Of a DNA stretch of 64,000 bases, positions 47,721-50,799 are shown piece by piece (position 1 is the stretch's first letter; every line of letters begins with the position of its first letter). The notes below the pieces were generated by a model. The model did no database searches and was not told the origin of the DNA. It worked only from the letters and a program-made list of their open reading frames with translations. Origin of the DNA: Halorientalis sp. LT38 (GTDB lineage Archaea; Halobacteriota; Halobacteria; Halobacteriales; Haloarculaceae). The stretch lies in contig NZ_JAYEZN010000001.1 of the NCBI RefSeq assembly GCF_037031225.1, forward strand, positions 2,046,001-2,110,000. Reading direction: 5' to 3'. A program made the position numbers and the translations under genes.

Positions 47721-47798
47721 GGGTCCCCTTCCACGCCCAGCACACTCATCGTTTCCCCGGCACGGAGTTTCAACACGCCCAACGTGGAAGGGCGGGCC

Positions 47799-48698
47799 AT
47801 GGCCCTGCCCGGCGCCCTCGAACTCCTGCTCACCCGCCTCGGCCGGTTCGTCGTCCCCGCAGCCGTGTTCGTCGTCGCCGCCTTCGCCTTCTACTTCCCG
47901 GCCCGGTACGTCTCGATGGCCGTCGCTCGCCGCGTGACGGCCCTCGCGAACGTGGATCAGGCGGTCGAACTCCCCGCGCTGAAGGTCCTCCACGCGACAA
48001 TCGGCGTCCTCGCCATCCTCGTCGGCGCCTCGGTCTCCGGCGTCGCCCGCTTTCTCGCCGCGACGGCCGCCATCACCGCCGGCCTCACCATCGCGCTGGG
48101 CTTCGCCGCCCGCGACGTGCTGGGCAACGTCGTCTCCGGCGTGTTCATCGTCCTCGACCCCACCTTCGACATCGGCGACTGGATCCGCTGGGGCGACCAG
48201 GAGGGCGTCATCGAGGACATCAGCTTCCGCACCACCCGCGTCCACACTTTCGACAACGAACTCGTCGCCGTCCCCAACTCCGAGCTGACGACCAACCCCG
48301 TCGTCAACCCCGGCGCGAAGGAGTTCCTCCGGCTCTGCGTCACCTTCGAGGTCGACGTCGAGAACGACCTCGCCGCCGTGACCGACCTCCTGATCGCCGC
48401 CGCCCGGGACCACCCCGACGTGCTCGACCGCCCGGCGGCCACCGTCCGCCTGCGGGAGATCACGGAGACCTCGGCCTTCCTCGACGTCCGGTTCTGGGTC
48501 CGCAGCCCCGAGAAGATCGACGTCGTCCGCATCCGCTCCGAGTTCACCAGGACGGCGAAGGAGCGGTTCAGCGCCGCCGGCCACGACTGGCCCGCCGCCG
48601 ACCTCTCCGGCGAGGTCGGGATTCGGCAGGTGGACGAGGGGGAGGGATCTGGCCCCGTCGTTCCCGATACGGACCGGCGAGACGGAGACGACCAGTGA
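47799..48698 (+). CDS. MscS-type mechanosensitive channel
   Basis: The 299-residue channel has three membrane helices: two N-terminal ones (about 12-35, 60-85) and the pore-lining helix (about 90-120, ITAGLTIALGFAARDVLGNVVSG). The beta domain follows (VFIVLDPTFDIGDWIRWGDQEGVIEDI, then NSELTTNPVVN) and a C-terminal cytoplasmic domain. It releases osmolytes on hypo-osmotic shock. GGAGTTTCAAC at 47764-47774 is the upstream box for ATG 47799. The 749 bp element is inserted just 3-11 bases after its stop. Confidence 0.9.
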   Translation: MALPGALELLLTRLGRFVVPAAVFVVAAFAFYFPARYVSMAVARRVTALANVDQAVELPALKVLHATIGVLAILVGASVSGVARFLAATAAITAGLTIALGFAARDVLGNVVSGVFIVLDPTFDIGDWIRWGDQEGVIEDISFRTTRVHTFDNELVAVPNSELTTNPVVNPGAKEFLRLCVTFEVDVENDLAAVTDLLIAAARDHPDVLDRPAATVRLREITETSAFLDVRFWVRSPEKIDVVRIRSEFTRTAKERFSAAGHDWPAADLSGEVGIRQVDEGEGSGPVVPDTDRRDGDDQ

Positions 48699-48701
48699 TC
48701 G

Positions 48702-48709
48702 ATCACAAC
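48702..48709. repeat. 8 bp target-site duplication, left copy
   Basis: ATCACAAC here is repeated exactly at 49459-49466, immediately outside the right inverted terminus of the element at 48710-49458. Removing one copy and the element restores an uninterrupted junction between the MscS and TiaS genes. Confidence 0.8.
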
Positions 48710-49458
48710 GCCTCTGTTGAAATCCCCTGTTTCAGGCAAAATACGGCGGGCAACAGCCGGTCAGTGCGTCTGCGTTTTTCTCAGTGACCAGAAGACATTT
48801 ATCAACTTGAATGCTCAGTTCGATGACTCGATATGGGCCGGACTTCTCACCCTCTCACTTCCGTTGTTTTCGGACTTGGTACGGTCCTCATCGTGATTTC
48901 TGTCGCCTTCCCCGAGGCAGTGGGCTGGGAAACGATTTGGATGGGTATCGGGGGTGTCTATGCGACAACAGCAGTTCTCTTCAAACTCTACGAACGGTAC
49001 GGAGAAGCGGCTTCTATTCCGTTCACCTACTCACTATTTGTGGCTATAGCCTCGATACTCGTTGCGTATGGTCTCCAAGCAACTGGCTGGATAGCTAGGG
49101 GACATGCGAAAATGTCTCTCGAATCCTTCCTTTGGCCACCGCATTTGATGATCCCCTTCGGAATCGCCTTTCTCGCACCATACGCAATCTCAGAGCGGGA
49201 AAAGGAACGGAAGATGACGGAGGTATTAGTTGGAATCTTCTTGGTGATCGCGATTAACGTTCAGCTTTACAGAGCTATAGACGACTGGATAGCGCCCTGG
49301 TTAGCAATCATCTACATTCCAATTCTATTCCTTGTTGGCTTGGTTGCCGGGATCCCCATGTACTGGTATTGTTGGGTTCTCGATGCGGAGTGATCGGGGA
49401 ACTGTATTGACCGAAATCGGGGCTAAGTGTATCGACTGCCAAGGGTTTCAACAGAGTC
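48710..49458. mobile_element. transposase-less element with inverted termini and a cargo gene
   Basis: The left end GCCTCTGTTGAAATCCC (48710-48726) and the reverse complement of the right end, GACTCTGTTGAAACCC (49443-49458), form 16-17 bp imperfect terminal inverted repeats. They are flanked outside by the 8 bp direct repeat ATCACAAC. The 749 bp between contains only the 186-residue membrane protein gene and its promoter, and no transposase. GC is about 52% in a counted 60-base sample against about 70% around. It behaves as a non-autonomous transposon that would need a transposase in trans. Confidence 0.8.
48833..49393 (+). CDS. multi-helix membrane protein, cargo of the element
   Basis: The 186-residue protein has about six hydrophobic helices (TSVVFGLGTVLIVISVAF; MGIGGVYATTAVLF; FTYSLFVAIASILVAYGL; MIPFGIAFLAPYAI; VLVGIFLVIAINV; LAIIYIPILFLVGLVAGI) and short loops. 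Codons such as TTA, ATA and AGA are used far more than in neighbouring genes, indicating foreign origin. ACATTTATCAA at 48794-48804 is the TATA box for a leaderless ATG at 48833. No family is recognised; transport or immunity roles would be guesses. Confidence 0.75.
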   Translation: MGRTSHPLTSVVFGLGTVLIVISVAFPEAVGWETIWMGIGGVYATTAVLFKLYERYGEAASIPFTYSLFVAIASILVAYGLQATGWIARGHAKMSLESFLWPPHLMIPFGIAFLAPYAISEREKERKMTEVLVGIFLVIAINVQLYRAIDDWIAPWLAIIYIPILFLVGLVAGIPMYWYCWVLDAE

Positions 49459-49466
49459 ATCACAAC
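49459..49466. repeat. 8 bp target-site duplication, right copy
   Basis: ATCACAAC directly follows the right inverted terminus and matches 48702-48709 exactly. The remaining bases to the TiaS stop (49467-49485) carry no feature. Confidence 0.8.
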
Positions 49467-49485: not shown

Positions 49486-50799
49486 TCACCGCTCCGGGTG
49501 CGTCGCCGCGTCGAACCCGCCCCGAACTAACGGTTTGGCGATGTGCCGCCGCGCGCAAGGAGGGACCTCGTACCACCCCGCCTCGAGGTCCCGTTCGATC
49601 GGTCGCTCGACTTTCCCGTCGGCGCTCGTCCTGCAGTCCCGACAGCGGTAGCCAGCGTCCGCGCCGGCGCTCTCCATCCGCCGCCCGCAATCGGGACACT
49701 CTGGCGTGGCCGGTTCGGTCCGTCGCAGGTCCCTGACCGCGAACTTCTCCAGCTTCAGCGTGCCGTCGCTCACCTCGCCGCAGGCGGTCACCCGATCGCC
49801 GGCTCGGAGGGCGCGCACGCGATCGCGGAACCGCTTCGTCGGCTCGAACGCGACGCACGGCAGCGAACCCTCCTCACCGTCCGGAAACCCCAGCGTCGCG
49901 AATACGTGGCCGCCCTCCCTCGTCTCGGGATCCTCGATCACCTCGCCGGTGACGCGGACGGCCCGGTTCGCTTCGATCTCTCCTGGTTCGACAGTTTGGA
50001 GGTGCTGGTCGGTCCCCTGGTTGGTGACGAACGTCACCGCCCGGGCGACGGGCTCGCTCTCGATGGCCTCGGCGGCCGCCTCGACGGCCGCGCGGTCGTC
50101 GCCCCGGATGCCGTACAGGACGGGTCCGGGCGTGTTCGGGACGCAGACCGCCTCGCCCTCACCGCGGTCGACGGTGTCCCAGATCCGCGGGTAGTACTCG
50201 TTGGCGACCTCGAAGACCGCGTCGCGGTCCACCTCGCGGTCGCTCCCCCAGCGGTCGCGCTCGCGGTAGGTCAGCCGCTCGTAGGTCCAGTCGACGGGCG
50301 AGGCCACGGGGCCACTCTCCAGCTCGCCAAGGCCCGCCCAAGCGCCGGCGGCCGCGCTCGCGCCGACCAGACCCCGGCCGTTCCCCCAGCCCCGATGTCG
50401 ATACCCGCCGTCGACGAGGGGCGCGCGGACGTCGATTTCGGGGTCGAGGATCTCGCGAATCGCCCTTCTGGGGAGGGCTGCGAGCCACTCGGGGCGAGCG
50501 CCCAGGTCGTCGCCCGTCGCGACCACGCCTGGATTGGTCCGGTCGTCGGCGGTCTCGGCGACCTCGTCGACCAGTTCGGTCGCCAGCTCGAAGGCCTGAT
50601 CGACCGGGAGGTCGCAGTGGACCGCGAGGGCGGCGTTGCCGCGGGTCTTGTGCTCGACGGCGGGATTGAGGCGGACCAGGAGCAGTCGCTCGACGCGCCC
50701 GCCCACGTCGCGTACCCGGTCGGCCAGTCGCGCGGCGGCGTAGGTCGAACACATCCCCCGCGTTCGGGAGTCCGTGTCGTCGAGACCGACGATGGTCAC
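49486..50799 (-). CDS. tiaS: tRNA-Ile2 agmatidine synthetase
   Basis: The 437-residue archaeal enzyme attaches agmatine to C34 of tRNA-Ile2 so that it reads AUA. The N-terminal TiaS kinase-like domain opens TIVGLDDTDSRTRGMCSTYAA. GWGNGRGLVGASAAAGA lies mid-protein, an OB-fold at about 285-360 follows (RVTGEVIEDPETREGGHVFATL), and a zinc ribbon (CPDCGRRMES...CRDC) lies near the C-terminus. The length is normal. Its 3' end is 20 bases from the inserted element. Confidence 0.95.
   Translation of the reverse strand: MTIVGLDDTDSRTRGMCSTYAAARLADRVRDVGGRVERLLLVRLNPAVEHKTRGNAALAVHCDLPVDQAFELATELVDEVAETADDRTNPGVVATGDDLGARPEWLAALPRRAIREILDPEIDVRAPLVDGGYRHRGWGNGRGLVGASAAAGAWAGLGELESGPVASPVDWTYERLTYRERDRWGSDREVDRDAVFEVANEYYPRIWDTVDRGEGEAVCVPNTPGPVLYGIRGDDRAAVEAAAEAIESEPVARAVTFVTNQGTDQHLQTVEPGEIEANRAVRVTGEVIEDPETREGGHVFATLGFPDGEEGSLPCVAFEPTKRFRDRVRALRAGDRVTACGEVSDGTLKLEKFAVRDLRRTEPATPECPDCGRRMESAGADAGYRCRDCRTSADGKVERPIERDLEAGWYEVPPCARRHIAKPLVRGGFDAATHPER

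Follow-up and report, generated by a model that had tools for sequence, protein, structure and literature searches.

The 749-bp unit at positions 48710-49458 of the 64-kb window (the whole stretch of DNA that was analysed) is very probably a mobile insertion cassette (MIC), in which end modules of the IS5-family/MITE type surround a foreign gene and which would have been inserted by a transposase supplied in trans. Two IS-related inverted repeats bracket the unit, it contains a gene other than a transposase gene and it is flanked by a target duplication that is identical at 8/8 positions. An insertion sequence (IS) of the IS5 family would carry its own DDE transposase, which is missing here. 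With MITEs the unit has in common that its ends also occur on short non-autonomous units, but it is neither short nor non-coding nor multicopy, being a coding unit of 749 bp.

An earlier sequence-only reading had delimited this transposon-like unit correctly to the base. Its inverted ends are imperfect and 16-17 bp long, as had been described, with 14/16 identical bases; the left one is GCCTCTGTTGAAATCCC (from 48710) and the right one, given as the reverse complement, is GACTCTGTTGAAACCC (to 49458), and their first two bases are GC and GA where GG is usual. Directly outside both ends lies ATCACAAC, once at 48702-48709 and once at 49459-49466, which bears out the proposed 8-bp target duplication. 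The stop codon of the MscS-like mechanosensitive channel gene (47784-48698, plus strand) precedes the unit by 11 bp, and that of the convergent TiaS gene (49486-50799, minus strand) lies 27 bp beyond it; both names were adopted from the sequence-only reading, which had rightly placed the unit between these two stops (48698 and 49486). The unit has a GC content of 0.50 compared to 0.68 for the window, and its only substantial ORF (48833-49393, plus strand) encodes the 186-aa protein that had been named as its sole gene. The claimed lack of a transposase also holds, as tblastn with two IS5 transposases found none inside the unit.

That inverted repeats and octamers came to surround an ordinary low-GC gene by chance is an explanation to which we assign next to no probability. 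The end motif, allowing at most one mismatch, occurs twice in the 64 kb, exactly at the unit ends and facing inward, compared to 0.19 expected occurrences, and the duplication is perfect. Moreover, we surveyed the loci of relatives for facing end pairs, to which a test for an 8-bp duplication at a threshold of at least 7/8 was applied; in these haloarchaeal loci, picked by exact ends so that the shares are no population estimates, the threshold was reached by 40 of the 66 nearest facing end pairs versus 8 of 13,200 control comparisons. The chance explanation, in whose favour only the lack of an empty site could be put, was set aside on these three grounds.

The exact end 11-mer occurs three times in the whole genome, and the third occurrence is the end of a full IS, so that the search of the termini against the rest of the genome, suggested in the same reading, did yield an IS5-family element with such ends. 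This IS (C1:1996304-1997838, corresponding to locus L012:505-2039) is 1535 bp long, is flanked by the 8-bp duplication AGGGCCAA (8/8) and carries, at the stop side of its transposase gene, a passenger encoding a 144-aa SRPBCC protein (Polyketide_cyc2). Its 285-aa transposase scores 217 bits against NF033579 (cut-off 140), passes the Pfam DDE_Tnp_1 cut-off also and contains the signature Y-(2)-R-(3)-E-(6)-K (YHRRNMNETVNAVIK); the idea of IS6-family (IS26-like) ends was dropped after this transposase had been found. Judged by sequence, the unit has the ends of haloarchaeal IS5-family elements (NCBIfam transpos_IS5_2), and the terminal 16-mer is present in 286/392 genomes of the order, while a reversed control pattern was matched five times in all. 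The transposase of the 1535-bp IS is intact, is the only full transposase of its clade in the genome and is a plausible candidate for the enzyme supplied to the unit in trans. Since the end modules of the unit match known MITE end modules at only about 72%, the cognate transposase may instead be a relative that the genome has since lost.

These modules extend well beyond the inverted termini. The left one (48710-48769, plus strand) consists of the 16-17 bp terminus and about 45 bp more, and its 60 bases match the left (L) ends of haloarchaeal MITE-like units at 43/60 positions without gaps; the right one (49402-49458, minus strand) comprises the terminus and about 40 bp more and likewise reaches 43/60, over 60 bp, with the right (R) ends of such units. 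Outside the terminal 16 bases (positions 17-60) the best matches are 28/44 at the left and 29/44 at the right, which none of 2000 shuffles attained. In addition, the right 55 bases of the unit recur as element ends on other haloarchaeal plasmid records, where the similarity breaks off at the same place.

A different origin of the same structure would be internal deletion in a passenger-bearing IS that lost its transposase, making the unit a cassette by decay and not by capture into a MITE. In many full elements, the IS in the same genome included, the passenger follows the transposase stop and precedes the stop-side end, and one element (L086) has both a Na+/H+ exchanger gene and a broken transposase; the two observations fit such a history. 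Conversely, no transposase remnant was found in the unit, and beyond 30 bp its right end resembles the MITE R module and not the transposase-start end, and we therefore think decay unlikely, though by no means negligible.

The cargo gene is preceded by a TATA-like box, TTTATCAAC (48798-48806, plus strand), about 30 nt upstream of its start codon, in line with the promoter that the sequence-only reading had assigned to it. Nearly full-length homologues of the 186-aa protein are encoded on plasmid pHOS300 of Halorientalis sp. IM1011 (46% identity), by a paralogue in the same genome (37%) and in genome G207 (31%). All three lie outside any cassette and share the TTTATC core of the cargo gene's box, about 30 nt before the start, which indicates that the promoter came with the gene; judged by sequence, the gene probably owes its expression to this TATA box and is carried along with the unit. 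The abundance of short units with these ends speaks for a classical MITE whose ORF is fortuitous and no real gene, but the homologues in other contexts and the common promoter box refute this reading, leaving it a very slim probability. No Pfam, NCBIfam or PADLOC family was assigned to the protein, which hydropathy and a low-confidence structural model (pLDDT 52) predict to be all-helical with 4-6 membrane segments, in agreement with the membrane protein proposed earlier. Its relatives are rare: a profile added a few more, giving at best 9/392 genomes, the wider genome contigs contained one weak bacterial match and the viral contigs none, and at the homologues' loci that were checked no homologue was located between facing IS5-type ends.

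Whether the gene is a selected cargo, with an advantageous stress or transport function, or a neutral hitchhiker is a separate matter. Both the frame and the promoter box are intact and other units carry SBF/arsenite-permease-like, merA, VOC and GNAT genes, all of which speaks for selection; set against this are the missing family, the low-confidence fold and the small number of genomes with relatives, and we give selection a little less than an even chance.

As to the insertion itself, two end modules of the haloarchaeal IS5-family/MITE population would enclose a single foreign gene together with its promoter, and this gene would have become part of a MITE or IS frame prior to the insertion at the MscS-TiaS site. 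An IS5-family DDE transposase acting in trans may then have inserted the unit between the convergent MscS and TiaS stops, whereby a staggered cut of the target by the transposase would account for the 8-bp duplication. Transposition, trans-mobilisation and the direction of transfer of the 749-bp unit are all inferred here from sequence, and as the unit is single copy in its genome, movement of this very unit was not seen. TiaS is conserved in 8/8 genomes of the genus, Halorientalis, and save for one weak match of 35% this MscS is not beside TiaS at the other TiaS loci of the genus. With the flanks joined and compared to 146 genomes of the family, no match spanned the MscS-TiaS junction and no empty site was found; outside the own genome essentially TiaS-side matches only were obtained.

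The sequence-only reading had called a single-gene passenger unit of this size unusual, which does not hold, as many single-gene, transposase-free units with such ends are present in haloarchaeal genomes and MICs have already been described (PMC3913671, PMC3129680). The survey yielded 51 distinct units with duplications of 7-8/8: 3 units of 1.24-1.28 kb with a transposase, 16 longer transposase-bearing units, 15 short units of less than 530 bp and 17 transposase-free units of more than 530 bp. Several of the longer transposase-bearing units have passengers, which by eye are thioredoxin-like, winged-helix-like, reductase-like and methyltransferase-like. About 15 of the 17 transposase-free units, the 749-bp unit among them, have a frame of at least 129 aa, and the same termini are thus found around other genes in about 14 further units, a check that had likewise been proposed; their cargo includes arsenite-permease-like, VOC, GNAT, luciferase-like and hydrolase genes. 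Pfam domains were found in six transposase-free units (SBF, glyoxalase, GNAT, BrkB, luciferase-like monooxygenase and alpha/beta hydrolase). The haloarchaeal population behind the unit is unexpectedly large.

Some loci deserve separate mention. Locus L051 (797 bp) was rejected as a further cassette, its octamers agreeing at only 4/8 positions. In L053:512-3278, a 1353-bp lipoprotein cassette (duplication ATTCGAAC) is nested in a larger transposase-bearing unit (duplication TTATATTT). The unit at L086:604-2600 combines the Na+/H+ exchanger gene with a truncated IS5 transposase inside the duplication TCTTACTC and is perhaps an intermediate between a passenger-bearing IS and a cassette. Loci L113 and L116 have doubled inverted ends, where one set of element ends lies within another at a distance of 90 bp and an N occupies the inner junctions, for which insertion of an element into an element and an assembly artefact are both possible.

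Comparable units occur at more than one site. Two genomes of different families share a transposase-free cassette with an SBF-family gene of 344 aa (1248/1249 bp; 98% identity), whose two copies have different flanks and different duplications, GTACATCC and GTTCATGT. A third relative, on plasmid pSVX82-3 of Haloferax lucentense, has the same right end but is part of a 3.4-kb unit (L161:662-4085), which is also transposase-free, has termini of the same kind and the duplication GAACAGCA (8/8), and carries an HTH gene, merA and an arsenic-resistance gene, the last of which travels alone elsewhere. One genome has two copies of a 462-bp unit at different sites, with 100% identity between them.

Among the short units, 85/91 pairs match somewhere when compared over their full length and 0/91 once the ends are removed; no two of the short units (L038, L059 and L060 among them) have an interior in common, even when they belong to one genome. 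On the plasmids listed, nothing of the L100 cassette but its two ends (1-67 and 1203-1286) recurs, plasmid matches to the interiors of two short units were not obtained, and donor copies of interiors with matching breakpoints were not found. These sequence comparisons suggest constant ends with exchangeable interiors; fast divergence of unconstrained interiors may instead account for the differences. Tentatively, and with rather more doubt than belief, we regard the haloarchaeal IS5-family ends as an open system of gene capture, whose constant modules (about 60 bp) would acquire new interiors again and again (gene fragments, single genes and small operons, for instance HTH-merA-arsenic gene), with the resulting cassettes then moving from genus to genus in trans. 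Such a system would be somewhat akin to integron cassettes or Pack-MULEs, but would use a plain IS transposase.

Haloarchaea exchange genes heavily, yet small single-gene vehicles are hardly annotated in them. Units of this type are invisible to transposase-based annotation and detectable by their ends alone, and they carry real metabolic and metal-resistance genes. They also offer a direct route to test the spreading of host genes in trans by an IS transposase and the entry of genes into a MITE or IS.

The Pack-MULEs of plants combine constant ends with differing interiors, as these units appear to do, although their transposase is unrelated. Haloarchaeal MITEs resemble the unit in their end modules of about 60 bp (those of the short units in the survey), their duplication and a dependence on a transposase in trans that is putative for the unit, but compared to those of Haloquadratum, where only one ORF-bearing MITE type is reported (ISH2-like, about 520 bp), the unit is longer and holds a real gene (PMC3119063). 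With the haloarchaeal NF033579-type IS5 elements, which are either plain (about 1.24 kb) or passenger-bearing, the latter being the 'transporter IS' of PMC3129680, it has the terminal 16-mer and the 8-bp duplication in common, the transposase being absent from the unit. MICs are a known kind of element, and apparently archaeal ones are undocumented in the literature searched: in the titles and abstracts of papers on archaea and MICs no archaeal MIC was evident. Described MICs, namely MIC231 of Bacillus cereus and the qnrD mic of Proteeae (PMC3913671; see also PMC3129680), match the unit in having two IS-type inverted repeats, a target duplication, a non-transposase gene and no transposase nearby. 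The unit differs from MIC231, which has IS231/IS4 ends and a duplication of 10-12 bp (PMC2266710), by its IS5-family ends, its 8-bp duplication, its archaeal host and a trans-mobilisation that is putative.
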